Positions 33,090 to 43,054 of a DNA stretch of 64,000 nucleotides are shown here, piece by piece. This stretch comes from Bacteriovoracaceae bacterium (GTDB lineage: Bacteria > Bdellovibrionota > Bacteriovoracia > Bacteriovoracales > Bacteriovoracaceae): assembly GCA_016786485.1 (NCBI GenBank), contig JAEUWD010000042.1, positions 1-64,000 of the forward strand, given 5' to 3'. The translations under genes were made by a program, and so were the position numbers. A model generated the notes under the pieces. The model was not told the origin of the DNA and did no database searches. It saw nothing but the letters and a program-made list of their open reading frames with translations. Position 1 is the stretch's first letter. Each line of letters opens with the position of its first letter.

Positions 33090-34583
33090 ATGTTATCGTT
33101 AAGCATGAGTGACGCAGTTATTATTCTAGGTGATCAATTATTTCCGCATACCTTTTATACTCAATATAAGAAACTTCCGGTTTTTATGGCGGAAGATTTC
33201 GAGCTTGCTACACATTTTAAATATCACAAGCATAAAATTGCCTTTTTTTTCATCTCGATGCGAACCTATTCTGAAGAACTGACTCGACATGGTTTTCAGG
33301 TTCATTATGAAAAATTGTCATCAGTGAACTTTATGGAAAACCTTGCAAACTTTGTAAAAAAAAATCAAATCAAAAAACTGATAGTGCCTGAAGTGCAAGA
33401 TAAGTTTTTTGAAAAAAGCCTGCTCGATTTTTCAAAAGAACAAAGTGTCACTATCGATTTTATCACTTCGCCCATGTTTCTTTGTTCACGCCAAGAGTTT
33501 AAAAATTATCTCGCAAAATATTCGAAACCATTCATGAAAACTTTCTATGAAGGTGAGCGTAAACGTTTGAACGTTTTGATGGCAAAAAATCAAAAGCCTG
33601 AAGGAGAGCAGTGGAGTTTTGATGTTGAGAATCGCAAAAAAGCCCCCAAGGAACTTACCAATAAAAAACTCCTAAAACCTACACCGAACATACATTTTGA
33701 TGATGTAAAAGAACTAGTTAATAAAAATTTTTCATCTCATCCAGGAAATATGGATGATTTCTGGTTACCAACAAGTCGGGAAGAGAGTTTAAAATTTCTA
33801 GAACATTTTATTAATCATCATTTAGATAATTTTGGTGATTATCAGGATGCTATTACTTCACGTGATCCTTTTTTATATCACTCGGTCATTTCACCGATGA
33901 TGAATAATGGATTCATTACACCAGATGAAATTATTCAGAGGGTGATCAAAGCTTATCGTACCAAAAAAGATATACCGCTTGCTTCGGTAGAAGGGTTTAT
34001 ACGACAAATTATGGGTTGGAGAGAGTTTGTTAGAGGTATCTATCAAAATTATTCAGAGAAGGAAGAGAGCTCGAATTTTTTTAATCACCAAAACAAGCTC
34101 GGACCTGCTTGGTATGAAGGGACGACCGGTATTCTCCCCGTGGACGATGCGATAAAAAAGGCCATACGCTATGGTTATTGCCACCATATTGAGCGGCTCA
34201 TGATTTTATCAAATATTATGTTATTAACTGAGATCCATCCTCAGGAGGTTCACAAGTGGTTTATGGAAATGTTTGTCGACAGTGCAGACTGGGTCATGGG
34301 GCCTAATGTTTACGGGATGGGACAATTTGCTGACGGAGGCTTATTTGCAACTAAGCCTTACATTTCGGGTAGTAACTATATTTTAAAAATGTCAGATTAT
34401 AAAAAGGGTGATTGGTGCGAAATTTGGGATGGGTTGTTTTGGCGTTTTATTGATAAAAACTCTAAGTTTTTTTTACGAAACCCACGCATGAGTATGATGG
34501 TTAAAACTTTTGAAAAAATGGATAATAAGAAAAAGCTGCGCATGTCCGAAGTGGCTGAAAAATTTATTCAGCAAATGTGCTAG
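33090..34583 (+). CDS. Photolyase-related protein (FeS-BCP/CryPro type)
   Basis: The start may be ATG 33090 or 33105 (MSDAVIILGDQLFPH). The N-terminal DPRP-like Rossmann domain is followed by a helical FAD domain with SVEGFIRQIMGWREFVRGIY and HHIERLMILSNIMLLTEIHP, then GMGQFADGGLFATKPYISGS and DWCEIWDGLFWRFI. This matches the iron-sulfur bacterial cryptochrome/(6-4) photolyase group, with Cys residues in the last 150 positions as cluster ligands. It would repair UV photoproducts or sense light. It follows lysR by 7 bp. Confidence 0.88.
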   Translation: MLSLSMSDAVIILGDQLFPHTFYTQYKKLPVFMAEDFELATHFKYHKHKIAFFFISMRTYSEELTRHGFQVHYEKLSSVNFMENLANFVKKNQIKKLIVPEVQDKFFEKSLLDFSKEQSVTIDFITSPMFLCSRQEFKNYLAKYSKPFMKTFYEGERKRLNVLMAKNQKPEGEQWSFDVENRKKAPKELTNKKLLKPTPNIHFDDVKELVNKNFSSHPGNMDDFWLPTSREESLKFLEHFINHHLDNFGDYQDAITSRDPFLYHSVISPMMNNGFITPDEIIQRVIKAYRTKKDIPLASVEGFIRQIMGWREFVRGIYQNYSEKEESSNFFNHQNKLGPAWYEGTTGILPVDDAIKKAIRYGYCHHIERLMILSNIMLLTEIHPQEVHKWFMEMFVDSADWVMGPNVYGMGQFADGGLFATKPYISGSNYILKMSDYKKGDWCEIWDGLFWRFIDKNSKFFLRNPRMSMMVKTFEKMDNKKKLRMSEVAEKFIQQMC

Positions 34584-34589
34584 GTATAA

Positions 34590-35018
34590 CTAACTGATCG
34601 TTATAACGGGTATAATTTCTGTCTTCACTGATTGTAGGATAAATCCGTTGTCGAGAGCTTTCTTTAATATAATCTGTGCTTTTTTTGAATCAGAAGCTTC
34701 TAGAATATCGATATGAAAAAATATTTTTTTCATACATGGTTTTTTGTTTTCATCTAAATCGACAATAAGTTCAGATTTCACTTCTATCTTGCTGAAATTT
34801 AATTTCGAATAATGCGCATAAACTTTAAAGGTTCCAATCAGACAATTTTGGAGTGCTAGCAAGTAAATATCTTCAGGACTAAGTCCGTCACCACTTCCAT
34901 CAAACTCCTTTGGTACAGCACAGTTAATTTGATGTTCTGAAGCTGAACATGACCAACTTGTTTTAATTCCTTCTAGCGATGTGGCGTTTCCAGAAAAAGA
35001 GAGTGGATAACTTATCAT
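34590..35018 (-). CDS. OsmC/Ohr-family protein
   Basis: ATG 35018 follows AGGAGT. The 142-aa protein has the OsmC arrangement: an N-terminal beta half, GDGLSPEDIYLLALQNCLIGTF with the peroxidatic-type Cys, then a strand-rich C-terminus. Such proteins often reduce organic peroxides with thiols. It is last in the operon headed by the TIGR01777 gene and convergent with the photolyase-like gene, in a neighbourhood typical of photo-oxidative stress. Confidence 0.82.
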   Translation of the reverse strand: MISYPLSFSGNATSLEGIKTSWSCSASEHQINCAVPKEFDGSGDGLSPEDIYLLALQNCLIGTFKVYAHYSKLNFSKIEVKSELIVDLDENKKPCMKKIFFHIDILEASDSKKAQIILKKALDNGFILQSVKTEIIPVITIS

Positions 35019-35031
35019 AAAGAATGACTCC

Positions 35032-35430
35032 TCATTTATTGAGAGCAAGTTTTAGTTTGTTCACAAGATATGAAACAAGCGCACATGAAACTATACCCCA
35101 GCCAACATCAATTATTATAATGGTTGAAGGCCAATGTGTGAGAATAGCTGCATTCGTAAAATCATAAATTCCATAAGTCACCAAACCAAAAGTGGCCCCA
35201 TAAAAAACAACTTTTTTAGAACTTAAGACAAAAATGTTAATGCCTAAAGCGAGGAGCAAGTAAACGAGCAACGCTGGAAGATAAGCGACATCAATACTGT
35301 TGTTCTGAATGCGCGCTATCGAGTTGAGATGTTGGTAAAAAGTATCACCTGTCACTAAATTAAACCAAGCGATATCTAAAATAATAAATAATATAACACT
35401 AAGAAAATAAATTAATAATTTAACCTTCAT
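35032..35430 (-). CDS. DUF2177 membrane protein
   Basis: The 132-aa protein has four membrane segments and the DUF2177 hallmarks LDIAWFNLVTGDTFY near the N-terminus, FGLVTYGIYDFTNAAILTHW in the third segment and DVGWG in the fourth. DUF2177 genes recur in light-inducible clusters under LitR-type regulators. Its start follows the stop of the preceding gene directly. The function is unknown. Confidence 0.87.
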   Translation of the reverse strand: MKVKLLIYFLSVILFIILDIAWFNLVTGDTFYQHLNSIARIQNNSIDVAYLPALLVYLLLALGINIFVLSSKKVVFYGATFGLVTYGIYDFTNAAILTHWPSTIIIIDVGWGIVSCALVSYLVNKLKLALNK

Positions 35431-36804
35431 TTATTTGCTCGTGAAAATTTTCGCGATAACTCTTCTGCGATATGAAAAAATTTTATTTACGTCAGATTTT
35501 ACTAACGGCCCTGTGATGGCTTCTCCTAAAAGTCCGAATGGCATTTTATAGTGCACTCGATCACGCATGAGTGTTCCACCTGCAAATTCGATAAACTCAT
35601 GAGTATGGTGCCATTTTTTATAAGGACCCTTAAGTTGCTCATCGGTAAATTGTTTGTTGACTTGCCAGCTTTCAATAAGTGTACGCCACTTAAGAGGGAT
35701 ACCATATAAGTTTAAGCGGTAATCAATCAGCGTGCCTTTCTGCATGTCAGGAGTTGATTTTTTTAGAACCTGAAATTTTAAATGTTTCGGCGTTAATACC
35801 TCTAAATTTTTTTCATCACTAAAAAAAGGGAAAATTTCTGAAACTTTATTTGGCAACCAGATCTCATACAAGGCTTCTTTTTGTCCCTTCGTAAGAGGCG
35901 AGCATATCTCATTGAGTGCACTGACTAAGGATGCAAATTTGAATTGAAAATTTGTTCCTTGGATTTTTTTTGAGGAAACTTTTTGCCCACCAGTTACTAA
36001 TTTTGACATTTCACCTAAGCCAATTTTTAATGCAATTGATGGAACTGGGATAAATAAATTTTTTCCTAATGCTTTGGCGAGAGTTTTAGAGAAAACTTTA
36101 TTCGTTGCCGGTTCTGGAGCAACAGCATTGTATGCTCCCTCAAGATTTGGGTTATTTACAAAATGAACGAACATTTGTGCTAAATCTTCAATGTGAATCC
36201 AACTCATCCATTGCTTTCCACTACCAATCACACCGCCGATACCTAGGCTAAAAAGCGGTAACATTTTTTCCATCGCACCACCGTGGCGAGAGAGAACAAT
36301 TCCGATACGTGGGTTAATAACTTTGACAGATTTTTGTTTTAGTTTTTTTGCTTCATCTTCCCAAGCTACGCAGACTTTAGCTAGAAAGTCGTTGGCTTGT
36401 GATGAGTTCTCATCGACTTCATTTTGAGTGTCTCCATAAATTCCGATGGCCGATGCACTTATGAATTGTTTTACACGTCCAGAGCTTGCCATAATAGCAT
36501 TGACTAGATTTCTTGTTCCAAGTTGTCGTGATTCTAGAATTTCTTTTTTACGTTTATTGCTCCAGCGTCCGGAAGCGATAGATTCCCCAGCTAAGTGAAT
36601 CACAGAATCAATCTCGTTAAAAACTTCAGGAGAGAGTGGGTTATTATAATGTTTCCATTCCACAAGCCTTGCTGGAAAGGGTAGTGAGCTTTGCGCTTCA
36701 TTCGTATTGCGAGTTAAAACCGTTAATTCATGTCCTTGAGATACAAGTAATTTACCGATTTCTTTACCGATAAGACCAGTCGCGCCCGTCATAAGTATGT
36801 TCAT
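35431..36804 (-). CDS. TIGR01777 NAD-dependent epimerase fused to SRPBCC domain
   Basis: Residues 1-300 form an extended-SDR domain: MTGATGLIGKEIGKLL nucleotide-binding motif, VIHLAGESI and a WSNKRKKEILESR loop, all typical of the TIGR01777 family. Residues 310-457 form a START/SRPBCC-like lipid-binding domain (VSEIFPFFSDEKNLEVLTP), a known fusion. The substrate is unknown. It is the first gene of a three-gene operon divergent from the B12-type MerR regulator, so its promoter is the likely target of the 11-bp repeats. Confidence 0.85.
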   Translation of the reverse strand: MNILMTGATGLIGKEIGKLLVSQGHELTVLTRNTNEAQSSLPFPARLVEWKHYNNPLSPEVFNEIDSVIHLAGESIASGRWSNKRKKEILESRQLGTRNLVNAIMASSGRVKQFISASAIGIYGDTQNEVDENSSQANDFLAKVCVAWEDEAKKLKQKSVKVINPRIGIVLSRHGGAMEKMLPLFSLGIGGVIGSGKQWMSWIHIEDLAQMFVHFVNNPNLEGAYNAVAPEPATNKVFSKTLAKALGKNLFIPVPSIALKIGLGEMSKLVTGGQKVSSKKIQGTNFQFKFASLVSALNEICSPLTKGQKEALYEIWLPNKVSEIFPFFSDEKNLEVLTPKHLKFQVLKKSTPDMQKGTLIDYRLNLYGIPLKWRTLIESWQVNKQFTDEQLKGPYKKWHHTHEFIEFAGGTLMRDRVHYKMPFGLLGEAITGPLVKSDVNKIFSYRRRVIAKIFTSK

Positions 36805-36872
36805 AAGAAATCCTTTGAAAAGAGTTGAAATATATCTTTAATTATTGCACAATATTTGAATAGTATCAATGG

Positions 36873-36905
36873 TGTTCATATGTTGTTCAAAGCCTATTCA
36901 AAAAA
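36873..36905. promoter_or_regulatory. Three 11-bp-phased direct repeats, CarH/LitR-type operator
   Basis: TGTTCA at 36873-36878, TGTTCA at 36884-36889 and TATTCA at 36895-36900 recur every 11 bp. Tandem 11-bp direct repeats are the known operator form of CarH, whose subunits bind them one each. The site lies between the divergent TIGR01777 operon and the B12-binding MerR gene. An inverted copy, TGAATA, lies at 36857-36862. Confidence 0.65.
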
Positions 36906-36915
36906 GAGCTAAGTT

Positions 36916-37842
36916 ATGAAAAACGTGAATATGAAGGCGCTTGTAAAGCTAGTAGGTATTAATCCCAATACTTTAAGAGGTTGGGAGAGGCGTTATCAAG
37001 CAGTTACGCCACAAAGAGGTGATGATGGTCGGCGGAGTTATTCAGCCGATGATGTTGAGCGTGTACGTTATTTATGGGAATTGGTACAGCGTGGACATAA
37101 TATTGGAAATATCTGCAAACTATCCACTCATGTCCTAAAGAAAATGCTTGGCGAAAGTGAGGCCATGTTAAGCCTAGCGAAGGCGGATACATCTGCTGTC
37201 GATAGACTCGAAGCTGTTATTAAAGCACTCGAAAAGTTCGATCTCGAACTACTCAATCAGCATTTACAAAAAGCCAGATTTCAAATGGGATTATTGGACT
37301 TAATAAACCAATTCATTTATCCCCTTATGAAACAGGTGGGAAGTCTTGTCGGTCAAAGTCGTTTAAGCATCTCTCAGGAGCACTTACTTTCTGCGCTTTT
37401 GCGTGATTATCTTGGTGCAATTCATCTTTCGCTTTCACCTTATGAGCTTTCGAATCGAGAAACTTCAAAGAAAATCTTAATGAGCACGAGGGAGGGTGAT
37501 ATCCATGAATTTGGAATATTAATCTCAGCAATATTATGCAATTATCATCGCTATCGTAACTATTACCTTGGTCCTAATTTACCAGTCAATGAACTGCTGG
37601 AAGCTGCCAATCGCTATCGACCTGATATGATATTGTTGGGCTTGATGAAACTCCCTAAGAAGCTAGAAGTCGTTACGAGTAAAGATTATTTGGCGTATCT
37701 CGATCAGAAACTTCCAAAATCCACAAGTCTTATTCTCGGTGGAAATGATATAGAGTCAGTGTTTGAAATGAAATTTAGAAGAAGTGTATTCTTTATGCAT
37801 AGTCTAGTCGAATTAGATAATATTTTGACAAGAGGCCTTTAA
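36916..37842 (+). CDS. B12-binding MerR-family regulator, CarH/LitR-like
   Basis: Residues 6-75 are a MerR DNA-binding domain (NPNTLRGWERRYQAVTPQRG). A helical bundle with E155-H156 and a Rossmann-type cobalamin domain with D195-x-H197-x-x-G200 follow, so the lower axial His ligand is kept. The Wx9EH capping Trp is V145 and the next residue is Gly, not the His used by CarH in the light state. The regulator may therefore be light-independent or sense differently. It is divergent from a photostress-type operon. Confidence 0.85.
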   Translation: MKNVNMKALVKLVGINPNTLRGWERRYQAVTPQRGDDGRRSYSADDVERVRYLWELVQRGHNIGNICKLSTHVLKKMLGESEAMLSLAKADTSAVDRLEAVIKALEKFDLELLNQHLQKARFQMGLLDLINQFIYPLMKQVGSLVGQSRLSISQEHLLSALLRDYLGAIHLSLSPYELSNRETSKKILMSTREGDIHEFGILISAILCNYHRYRNYYLGPNLPVNELLEAANRYRPDMILLGLMKLPKKLEVVTSKDYLAYLDQKLPKSTSLILGGNDIESVFEMKFRRSVFFMHSLVELDNILTRGL

Positions 37843-39134: not shown

Positions 39135-39536
39135 TCTTTTAAAAATTAATTCTAAGTTTAATGCATCTTCAGTTTCGAATACCACATCATTAAAAGTTGG
39201 TGGTCCAAAGGTAATTTTGGGATTTTTTGAGAAACCAAAAGCTTCATTTGGTATGCCTAAAAAATTTTCATCTAACTTTTGATTGTCATTTTCATCATGA
39301 AAAAATGCAATCGCATATCGACCCGGTGGAACTTCTAAATCGGTACAAGGTTCATCTGGATGATAAACAAAGCTTTGGATGCGATATGGGGTTTTATCTT
39401 CTTTTAAGAATGTCTCAGGAGAATTATGGATAGCAATTTGAATGATGGCATTTTGCTCTTTAAGATTTTTAAAGCATAGTTTAAGCGTCTGAGTGTTGGC
39501 TTGTGCTAGAGAAAAGATTAACCAGGTGAGAATCAT
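39126..39536 (-). CDS. DUF2141 secreted protein
   Basis: A short signal peptide (MILTWLIFSLAQA) is followed by the DUF2141 core: an early beta strand, VPPGRYAIAFFHDENDNQKL with the acidic DENDN loop, then GIPNEAFGFS. The signature is nearly complete over 136 aa. DUF2141 proteins are periplasmic or surface beta-sandwiches of unknown function. The start overlaps the stop of the desaturase-like gene as ATGA. Confidence 0.87.
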   Translation of the reverse strand: MILTWLIFSLAQANTQTLKLCFKNLKEQNAIIQIAIHNSPETFLKEDKTPYRIQSFVYHPDEPCTDLEVPPGRYAIAFFHDENDNQKLDENFLGIPNEAFGFSKNPKITFGPPTFNDVVFETEDALNLELIFKRLL

Positions 39537-40213
39537 ATATTGCTCGTTTTTTCCCTAAAAAGTGCAGGGTATTTTTTATCTTCTGTCCTACAAATTTTAT
39601 CCCAGAATGTAAAATAAAGACCATAATTTGTTTTAAAGCTCAGGTGGTGCAGTCCATGGTGAGTTGCGCCAATTAACCATTTGCCATCAACAGGGCGATA
39701 AACTTCGATATTGAGATGATTAATAAAGCTACTAATAGTCATTAAGATAAGTTGAATAATAATAACGAACGGATGAAGTGGAATGAAAATGATAATGGGA
39801 AAAAAAATAGCAATTTGAAGTAACGCTTCAAAGGGATGAAATGAAAAAGCCGTCCAAACAGAATTTGTAATTGAATCATGATGAACTTTATGGATCCAGC
39901 GATAAATCCGTGGCAGATGCATAAAACGGTGAAGCCAATAGTAATAGGTCTCATGAACTAACATTGCTAAGGCCAGACTGATTGGCATATACCAAAGGGG
40001 ATAATCGTTCACATCTATGTAAACTTTTGTCCATCCGTTCTGCCAACAAAGAAAGAGTAAGGGCGTGAAAAAAGCAAATATTAAACTGGTAAGAGCTGAA
40101 AAAAAGATTTCTCGCTTTTTTTGTTCAAGCTGACGTGGAGTTTTAGAAACTGTTTTTTGAATAGCAAATGGCTTAAACCATTTTTCAAAAACAAATTCTA
40201 TTGTATACGCCAT
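39533..40213 (-). CDS. Sterol desaturase/fatty acid hydroxylase superfamily protein (start uncertain)
   Basis: The di-iron His clusters are present: HETYYYWLHRFMH, HKVHHDS and THHGLHH. Such membrane enzymes hydroxylate or desaturate lipids with O2. ATG 40213 falls within a hydrophobic helix; the frame stays open upstream and encodes a better first segment (ATITFLFLGIFLRYLF), but the only start candidates there are ATT (40264) or other rare codons. The true start may be non-standard. It is in an operon with the renalase-like and DUF2141 genes. Confidence 0.83.
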   Translation of the reverse strand: MAYTIEFVFEKWFKPFAIQKTVSKTPRQLEQKKREIFFSALTSLIFAFFTPLLFLCWQNGWTKVYIDVNDYPLWYMPISLALAMLVHETYYYWLHRFMHLPRIYRWIHKVHHDSITNSVWTAFSFHPFEALLQIAIFFPIIIFIPLHPFVIIIQLILMTISSFINHLNIEVYRPVDGKWLIGATHHGLHHLSFKTNYGLYFTFWDKICRTEDKKYPALFREKTSNI

Positions 40214-40277
40214 AAAAAGATAGCGAAGAAAAATACCTAAAAATAAAAATGTGATAGTCGCAATTTCGTATTTTATA

Positions 40278-41075
40278 TTAAGTCCTGGTTAACAATGGCA
40301 AAAGATAATCGACTGAGGATAAGCTGCCCGGTATGCCAGTTTTTTCAAAATAATCGCCGGCAAAATAAATATTTTGATTAGCATATATTATTTGCGAAGA
40401 TGATGGAATCGTTTTTGTTACTTCAGAATAGCGCCATTTATGAGCATGGCAATCAAGGACATTACCATCTACCATATCCTTGAAATAGAGTTTAATCTCG
40501 TCTTTATCACGATTAATAAAATCACCCATAAATTCATTTTTTAAATGATAAAAAAGTAGTTCTTCACTTCCGTGTATTTTTCTTTGCTTTAGCGATAAGA
40601 ATTTATCCAGTTTGGTTGCATCGTAAGGTGTTTTGACCAATACCATAAACTGAATTTCAGGCTTGTATTCTGCATCATTTAAAAAGTCCGCATTTAGACC
40701 AGATTGCTTGAGAAGGATTTGGGTTTGTGGTGCGGGCGTGGTTAAAATAATATTTTGAGCTACGAGAGAATTATTTTTAGTGTCAAAAATTTCAAAATGA
40801 CTATTTTCCTTTCTCCAGAACTTCACTTCCCAGTTAGTTCGGATGTTAGTCTTAGTGGCTATTTCTTTAATCCATGAATGAGGGTCTGAAATGATAGTTC
40901 TAAGCTTGGGGTGAAAAAAGCTATCAGTGCCGTGATTTATTGATATATCTGTTAATCTGCGAGCAGCAAGACGGCCCCCGATACCGCGGGATTTTTCCAA
41001 TATCACATGATCTGATAGTTCATTGGCCAGTGAAACACCAGTGATACCAGCTCCGATAATGCAAAATTTTTTCAT
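40278..41075 (-). CDS. Renalase-like FAD-dependent amine oxidase (COG3380-type)
   Basis: ATG 41075 overlaps the M48 gene stop. The Rossmann motif GAGITGVSLANEL, then LEKSRGIGGRLAARRL (the second FAD motif with the characteristic GRLA-R) and the C-terminal IYFAGDYFEKTGIPGSLSS are those of renalase-like oxidoreductases. The natural substrate is unknown. Homologues often accompany photolyases and LitR-type regulators, as in this neighbourhood. Confidence 0.85.
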   Translation of the reverse strand: MKKFCIIGAGITGVSLANELSDHVILEKSRGIGGRLAARRLTDISINHGTDSFFHPKLRTIISDPHSWIKEIATKTNIRTNWEVKFWRKENSHFEIFDTKNNSLVAQNIILTTPAPQTQILLKQSGLNADFLNDAEYKPEIQFMVLVKTPYDATKLDKFLSLKQRKIHGSEELLFYHLKNEFMGDFINRDKDEIKLYFKDMVDGNVLDCHAHKWRYSEVTKTIPSSSQIIYANQNIYFAGDYFEKTGIPGSLSSVDYLLPLLTRT

Positions 41076-43054
41076 GACAAGTAATTCCAATACCACATAG
41101 GCAGAAGCATCAAAAAGATCCAGAAAAATATTTTCCAAAAGAAAGTATAACTGCGAGAGCTGTTCTTTAGCGAGCTAATTTTTTTGACTTCGATAAAAGG
41201 TGAAGGGGTCCGTCGATACCATCCTTCCACAATGACTTCTTCATCCAGATATTGACGGTACTTTAATAAACCGAAGAAAATGTTAAATCCAATCGGTTCG
41301 TGATTTAAATAAATAATACCAGTTGAGTCTTGCAACATCATGTCTTCATTAAAAATGATTCCTGCACTGCCGCGACCGATAATTTTTCCCTTAATTTTAA
41401 CCGCATAAGTTCGCACTGGTGAAACCTTGATTTGCTTTAAAAGCGAAGCAATCTTGTAATGATCAATACTGCCACCAGGATATGTGCACATCGTTCGAAT
41501 AATTCCACCTACCGCAAAGGCCGGAATAACATGTGTGAAAACTGTTTTTAAATCCGTCCCATAATAAAACAAAGCAGCCGACGCAGTTATAAGCGGTAAA
41601 AAATAAATGCCTAAATCCCAAATGAAATCATCCCAATAACTTTCTGGTTTTTTCAAATCGAAATAAATTTCAGGAGTGAGTTGCATTTGCACGGCTTGCG
41701 CGGCAATAGCATTTATTCTTTTGGCAATCAGTGGGTGAGTCGAATAGAGTTCATAAAAACTGGCCCATGGACTCCAGAGATCCCAACTCATAATATGTTT
41801 AACAGCTTCATCGTAATCATTGTCTTGCACGCGTCTGGCAACCGCTAAACTTTTTGAGGTCTCGATATTCATAATATTAAAAGCTTGCACTGAAAGTGCA
41901 TGACCTTTCTTATCGCCTTCATTTTTTTCTTTCGAAAAACTTCCCATTAACCCATAGCCAATTTTAATTAGCGCTTTAGCGAGAGCATTAGGTTTTTTTG
42001 TGACAGTAATGCTAAATCGGTCAGCGTGAAATTCACGATTTCTCGAAATAAATAAAACCAAAAATTGAGAAATATGATAACAAAAGTATGCAATAATCCC
42101 CGCGATGAGCGTGACACTGCCGGCTTTACCATTGTTGTTGGATGACGATCCTTTCTTAACTCGAATTGCATAGCGGTAAAGATGATAAAATAATACCGGC
42201 GCCAGCTGCGCGATGGTCATGATGAGAAAATCCCAATTTTTTATATGACCAAATTCATGAGCGACAACAGCCTCAACCTCATCTTTTTCTAAAAGCTCAA
42301 CCAAACCTTTTGAAAGAACAAGACGTGCACTCCTTGGTCCTTGCCCGTAAGTATAAGCTTGGGGAGTCATATCGTCGATAAGGCCTAGACGTGGCACCGC
42401 TATCTTTTGTGCTTTGGTTATTTTCTCGACGGCGAGTCGATATTTTTCTGGTAGTTCATGCAGCTCCAACCAACTTAGACTTCCAATTAATTTTAAGCTC
42501 CAATCCATAATCATCGGACCTAAGAAAAACTGAATAAAAACAAAAGCGATAGAAATCGCCATCGCCACTGAGTGGATAAGGATTTCAGACTCAACTAAAA
42601 AAACCATCAACGCAAAAAAAGCAGCATACATTCCCGTCAGCACATATAAAGCAGTCGAGCCAAAAGAGGGGACAGAAACTTTAATCGGAATTTTCGGTTT
42701 GGCAGGGCCAATTTTTTTAGCTGAGATTTTATCGGATTTTTGTAGGTGCTCGAATTCTCTGTGATCAAAGAAAAGCCCCTGACACGTTTCACATTCTTCC
42801 ACTTCCAGATTAAATTCAGGTATTCGTCCTTGGCGTAGCTTTTTTTTGCAATGAGGACAGGCATAGTTGGTTGGGCGAATTTCATTAAGACCTTTTTCAC
42901 GATAAGTATTTAGTGATTTTCTAGATTTAACAAAGAAGCTAAGTTCACCTTGGTCAAACCATACACCACTGCAACTGGAGCAGACATCAATCATCACTCC
43001 AGCACGAGAGAGAACTTCATTAAAAGCGGCATCACATTTTGGACATTTAAGCAT
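41072..43054 (-). CDS. M48 membrane metalloprotease with two N-terminal zf-TFIIB ribbons
   Basis: Two zinc ribbons open the 660-aa protein: CPKC...CSSCSGVWFDQGEL (residues 4-45) and CPHCKKK...CETCQGLFFDHREFEHL (about 63-105). Membrane helices and an M48 peptidase domain with VVAHEFGHIKNWD and the downstream E-x-x-A-D (FHADRFS) follow. The C-terminal 170 residues hold further helices and a beta domain. HtpX-like relatives cleave damaged membrane proteins. The ribbon fusion suggests substrate or nucleic-acid sensing. It leads an operon with the renalase-like gene. Confidence 0.87.
   Translation of the reverse strand: MLKCPKCDAAFNEVLSRAGVMIDVCSSCSGVWFDQGELSFFVKSRKSLNTYREKGLNEIRPTNYACPHCKKKLRQGRIPEFNLEVEECETCQGLFFDHREFEHLQKSDKISAKKIGPAKPKIPIKVSVPSFGSTALYVLTGMYAAFFALMVFLVESEILIHSVAMAISIAFVFIQFFLGPMIMDWSLKLIGSLSWLELHELPEKYRLAVEKITKAQKIAVPRLGLIDDMTPQAYTYGQGPRSARLVLSKGLVELLEKDEVEAVVAHEFGHIKNWDFLIMTIAQLAPVLFYHLYRYAIRVKKGSSSNNNGKAGSVTLIAGIIAYFCYHISQFLVLFISRNREFHADRFSITVTKKPNALAKALIKIGYGLMGSFSKEKNEGDKKGHALSVQAFNIMNIETSKSLAVARRVQDNDYDEAVKHIMSWDLWSPWASFYELYSTHPLIAKRINAIAAQAVQMQLTPEIYFDLKKPESYWDDFIWDLGIYFLPLITASAALFYYGTDLKTVFTHVIPAFAVGGIIRTMCTYPGGSIDHYKIASLLKQIKVSPVRTYAVKIKGKIIGRGSAGIIFNEDMMLQDSTGIIYLNHEPIGFNIFFGLLKYRQYLDEEVIVEGWYRRTPSPFIEVKKISSLKNSSRSYTFFWKIFFWIFLMLLPMWYWNYLS

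Follow-up and report, generated by a model that had tools for sequence, protein, structure and literature searches.

The regulator locus

The window, that is, the whole stretch of 64,000 nucleotides analyzed here, which comes from a relative of predatory bacteria, encodes a MerR-type regulator that faces a divergent operon across an intergenic region containing three phased repeats. The features of the locus are as follows:

33090-34583, plus strand: photolyase-related protein (DPRP and FAD_binding_7), downstream of a LysR gene (ORF, profile matches)
34590-35048, minus strand: OsmC-like protein, probable member of the divergent TIGR01777 operon (profile match)
35032-35430, minus strand: DUF2177 membrane protein, probable member of the same operon (profile match)
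35431-36804, minus strand: TIGR01777 epimerase-type oxidoreductase of 457 aa with DUF1731 and an additional C-terminal portion; leads the divergent operon (profile matches)
36841-36869, minus strand: putative promoter driving the divergent operon, TTGATA-17-AATAAT (consensus scan only; chance alone would give 1 in the region)
36845-36852, no strand assigned: TTGCACAA block, shared by the close clade (TTGCATAA in L007; TTGCACAG in L060 and L069) and containing an inverted TnnACA half-site
36873-36900, no strand assigned: operator of three TRTTCA repeats in 11-bp phase (repeat scans, conservation in kin)
36916-37842, plus strand: MerR-type regulator, CarH-like and Trp-less, 308 aa (ORF, Pfam, AlphaFold2 model, PDB matches)
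37348-37353, plus strand: codons of V145-G146, aligned with TtCarH W131-H132 (sequence, alignment)
37378-37383, plus strand: codons of E155-H156, the EH of Wx9EH (alignment)
37504-37506, plus strand: codon of H197, equivalent of the lower axial cobalamin ligand, TtCarH H177 (alignment)

In the regulator, a winged-helix MerR DNA-binding domain (PF13411, MerR_1, E 2.7e-13) is followed by a four-helix B12-binding_2 domain (PF02607) and a Rossmann B12-binding domain, for which the Pfam match is weak (PF02310, 25.8 against a cut-off of 32.1). TtCarH is the top match in a sequence search of the PDB, and TtCarH chains are also the best PDB fold matches of the AlphaFold2 model (pLDDT 93.3, pTM 0.76), with TM scores of the cobalamin domain, by target length, of at most 0.83; the low full-length TM scores of the model are probably due to domain placement. 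Identity to TtCarH is ~21% over the structural alignment, and the NCBIfam CarH model yields 80 bits against a cut-off of 400.

The TIGR01777 and DUF1731 matches of the 457-aa protein stop near residue 300. On the other side of the regulator, a fatty acid hydroxylase gene and an FAD/NAD-binding gene lie nearby (39533-41138), the latter of which may correspond to the FAD oxidoreductases of light regulons.

A CarH-type operator in the divergent promoter region

The repeats are TGTTCA at 36873-36878, TGTTCA at 36884-36889, and TATTCA at 36895-36900, with N5 spacers. The triple TGTTCA-N5-TGTTCA-N5-TATTCA is unique within the window, where 0.04 occurrences are expected at up to 2 mismatches, and the exact triple occurs only once in the 2.98-Mb genome. 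On the opposite strand, the site reads TGAACA, TGAACA, TGAATA, that is, two full copies and one degenerate copy (TnnATA) of TnnACA, the published CarH operator repeat (PMC9304148), in the tandem 11-bp arrangement of CarH operators. The layout recurs upstream of seven close relatives, with TGTTCx/TGTGCx repeats before the start codon and a TTGCACAx block, the copy in L007 being degenerate. The preliminary description, which placed CarH-type 11-bp repeats in the divergent promoter, is borne out by this uniqueness and by the conservation in close kin. The predicted divergent promoter lies 3 bp from the repeats. When ~100 regulators were scanned, 11-bp TGTnnA triples exceeded shuffles in many, not all, Trp-less and Trp-bearing members. 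The repeat scan of the window detected no operator at the photolyase-related gene (33090-34583), which belongs to a light-damage context.

Signature residues of the regulator

TtCarH numbering falls into register without adjustment, so that V145 corresponds to W131, G146 to H132, E155 to E141, H156 to H142, and H197 to H177. Thus, the sequence and the TtCarH alignment uphold the preliminary assignments of V145 to the Trp site of Wx9EH with G146 beside it, and of a retained EH (155-156) and H197. No alignment shift, the caveat raised at that stage, brings the Trp back: the only two Trp residues, W23 and another near residue 54, both belong to the N-terminal DNA-binding part. The call of a missing His at position 146 is correct as to the residue; as a special trait it was rejected, because only 2 of the 13 tabulated Trp-bearing relatives carry His there. 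One more signature residue has changed beyond those named initially: in the B12 motif D/ExHx2G...SxT/V...GG, DIHEFG and G275-G276 are present, and the Ser of SxT/V is G242. Three of the four published light-responsive signatures, GxxW, EH, GxxH, and GxxxP (PMC11796333), are found in the protein.

Loss of the Trp across a Bdellovibrionota clade

The Trp is absent in ~106 relatives, nearly all of them from Bdellovibrionota. In a tree built without the trait columns, one branch (SH-aLRT 92) separates 106 Trp-less from 16 Trp-bearing rows; the tree is a quick reconstruction that contains some long branches and was drawn with a midpoint root. The Trp-less sequences come from Bdellovibrionota or from MAGs titled merely Proteobacteria or bacterium, and the Trp-bearing ones from Armatimonadota, Ignavibacteriota, Acidobacteriota, Myxococcota, Thermus, and one other Bdellovibrionota family. 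By this tree, the Trp loss is ancient and occurred once for the whole lineage. A local mutation is ruled out as the cause, since the loss runs clade-wide; so is absence of the Trp from the entire phylum, given the true Trp-type CarH of the other Bdellovibrionota family (L188, L192, and L194). These three sequences (family f6) cluster with the CarH of Thermus, on a long branch. In three Trp-less members (L065, L066, and L067), a Trp is present but shifted by two residues toward the N terminus (VGWMT...HEH).

The position of the Trp is occupied by Val in 70 and by Ile in 7 of 92 Trp-less sequences; hence, of the Val-Gly pair whose lineage-wide occurrence had been in question, the Val is lineage-wide and Gly146 is not conserved. 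The B12-related residues H197 (83%), E155 (90%), H156 (84%), P223 (90%), and G219 (98%) rank among the most conserved positions of the cobalamin domain in these 92 sequences, although the relatives share an identity of just ~30%. At the Ser position of SxT/V, 78 of the 92 have Gly, and some clade members have lost the His and EH. The latter losses, along with the two substitutions in the signature motifs, would be compatible with a decaying CarH remnant devoid of ligand control; with an intact ORF, a conserved operator, and B12 residues conserved over great divergence, we consider such decay highly improbable.

LOV genes and loss of the cobalamin ligand

Cys-bearing short-LOV genes (~190-204 aa, NCRFLQ) adjoin eight distinct regulators of the clade (L115, L124, L025, L242, L027, L251, L247, and L248), and all eight lack H197, with Ser, Arg, or Asn in its place. 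By comparison, H197 is absent in 6 of the 93 clade regulators scored as lacking an adjacent LOV gene, a score that, at loci with short flanks, rests on a genome-wide motif search. Fisher's test for the association of His loss with LOV gives p 1.5e-8, with rows that are not independent; the tree shows three separate LOV gains, and the independent-pairs (sign) test had too few pairs to reach significance. Two main layouts occur: the LOV gene follows TIGR01777 in the divergent operon, or it comes immediately after the regulator gene. One further pair is divergent. L131/L025 counts here as one case. Next to a His-retaining regulator (L037, also L265), a LOV relative with Leu in place of the Cys (GRNLAFLQG) is encoded directly downstream; signaling is still possible for Cys-less LOV (PMC4682037). 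The adjacency parallels that of PmlR2/PmSB-LOV (PMC9758184), although adjacency alone is no proof of partnership.

That a Cys-bearing LOV gene is adjacent only in His-less members suggests that the other members of the clade still use B12. A real rival, which we rate as unlikely, is a B12-independent repressor resembling CarA or class II LitR, with light arriving via a partner protein. CarA has the B12 motif and EH, lacks the Trp, and is B12-independent (PMC9304148), and class II LitR uses short LOV (PMC9758184), the kind of protein encoded beside some clade members. However, no NCRFLQ motif, short-LOV match, or BLUF match was detected in the window's genome, which is 98% complete, and its five PAS_9 matches carry no LOV motif; a partner of a non-LOV type may exist. 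The strong retention of the B12 residues, except mostly where LOV adjoins, also speaks against B12 independence.

Light-stress genes, adenosyltransferase, and a paralog

TIGR01777/DUF1731 dominates the neighbors of the Trp-less regulators (27 of 95 scanned), followed by FolE, lipocalin, DNA photolyase, and FAD oxidoreductases. Within 3 kb of the 51 His-bearing Trp-less regulators, TIGR01777 was found in 26 cases, photolyase in 9, and FolE in 8, and at least one query family is near 35 of the 51. OsmC lies near four other Trp-less regulators, and Polyketide_cyc is matched by nine scanned neighbors of related regulators. The regulons of Pseudomonas LitR include phr, folE, a dehydrogenase, and an FAD oxidoreductase (PMC9758184). 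The earlier proposal that the regulator controls the same type of genes as CarH fits these light-stress neighbors; its alternative of action without light becomes less likely, given the neighbor genes and the pattern of His loss with LOV gain. Its further suggestions, another cobalamin form or a different photochemistry, may still apply.

Such action without light would make the protein a sensor of cobalamin (AdoCbl, MeCbl, or the cobalt redox state), with a regulon that switches on when B12 runs short or under oxidative stress. In line with such a sensor, the adenosyl-stacking Trp is gone while the lower ligand is kept, and the same genome encodes a second Trp-less paralog (L002, also L054; contig C9) that, in our own reading of the neighboring gene's sequence, adjoins an acetyl-CoA-synthetase-like gene and for which the repeat scan gave no clear 11-bp operator. 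Thus, not all clade members serve light genes. Still, with photolyase, FolE, and lipocalin neighbors across the clade, and with an adjacent Cys-bearing light-sensor gene only upon His loss, both pointing to light, we regard a sensor unresponsive to light as improbable.

A PduO-type adenosyltransferase is present in the window's genome, in 23 of 23 regulator-bearing relatives, and in most other genomes of the family. Being near-ubiquitous, it discriminates weakly for the AdoCbl reading, and its co-occurrence was rejected as proof of AdoCbl use.

A proposed mechanism

CarH-like function is the best-supported mechanism for this regulator. We favor, with moderate confidence, a light-responsive and still cobalamin-dependent dark-state repressor with a reshaped, Trp-less upper-ligand pocket; cobalamin binding, light response, and repression are all inferred. 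In the dark, the regulator would repress a small light-stress regulon using cobalamin, most likely adenosylcobalamin, held via H197 under the Trp-less upper pocket (V145) characteristic of the Bdellovibrionota clade. The apo- or photolysed protein would let go of the three 11-bp repeats and so free its own promoter and that of the divergent TIGR01777-DUF2177-OsmC operon. Counting against this reading are the model in which Trp stacking is central to AdoCbl-specific assembly (PMC10442372, PMC9304148), the B12-independent CarA, the Gly in place of the SxT/V Ser, the PF02310 score below the cut-off, and a LOV association that rests on three independent gains only.

The Trp cap is regarded as essential to light sensing by B12 and as its defining feature. 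This claim becomes directly testable in an old clade that lacks the Trp and keeps the B12 ligand, the operator, and the light-stress genes. A bolder and less likely reading is a phylum-level clade of cobalamin photoreceptors without the Trp cap, operating through another upper-face geometry or cobalamin form; on several occasions, an adjacent flavin LOV sensor would have taken over from B12 in this clade, with the repressor and the light regulon kept. The neighboring LOV cases point to a possible route of chromophore swap for one repressor and so connect CarH with the Pseudomonas LitR that is driven by LOV. A literature search for a link of Bdellovibrio to CarH, or to cobalamin and photolyase, yielded no relevant paper.

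Comparison with known systems

The regulator resembles CarH/class I LitR (TtCarH) in domain order, fold, lower-ligand His, EH, the GxxH and GxxxP signatures, the 11-bp TnnACA-type operator, and light-stress gene context. It differs in lacking the Trp of Wx9EH and, judged by its sequence, falls outside the published definition of CarH by both signature motifs (PMC8156234) on this ground; the second motif is kept in part, with Gly for the SxT/V Ser. In one study, H132A TtCarH stayed mostly tetrameric in the light (PMC10442372), so DNA release may proceed in another way in a member that has neither the Trp nor the His.

With CarA of Myxococcus xanthus, the regulator shares the B12-ligand motif and EH without the Trp, the SxT/V Ser being the exception. 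However, reports of CarA are confined to a single myxobacterial suborder, and CarA works with CarS, whereas the Trp-less clade belongs to Bdellovibrionota; the two Trp losses are presumably separate, in a comparison where the tree held no CarA sequence. By analogy, CarA is a warning that retained B12 motifs need not mean B12 use.

Class II LitR (PplR/PmlR of Pseudomonas) is likewise a MerR repressor of phr/folE-type genes, and some clade relatives have an adjacent short LOV of the kind with which it works. Unlike class II LitR, which has no recognizable Rossmann B12 domain, the regulator keeps the Rossmann half and H197, its genome shows no short LOV, and its operator differs from the Pseudomonas site, TGTACA-N12-TGTACA. 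Finally, CtMerR of Chloracidobacterium (PDB 8jbs/8jbt) shares with it the combination of MerR and a B12 photoreceptor domain as well as the fold, but keeps the capping Trp (Trp156, PMC11796333) that is absent here.
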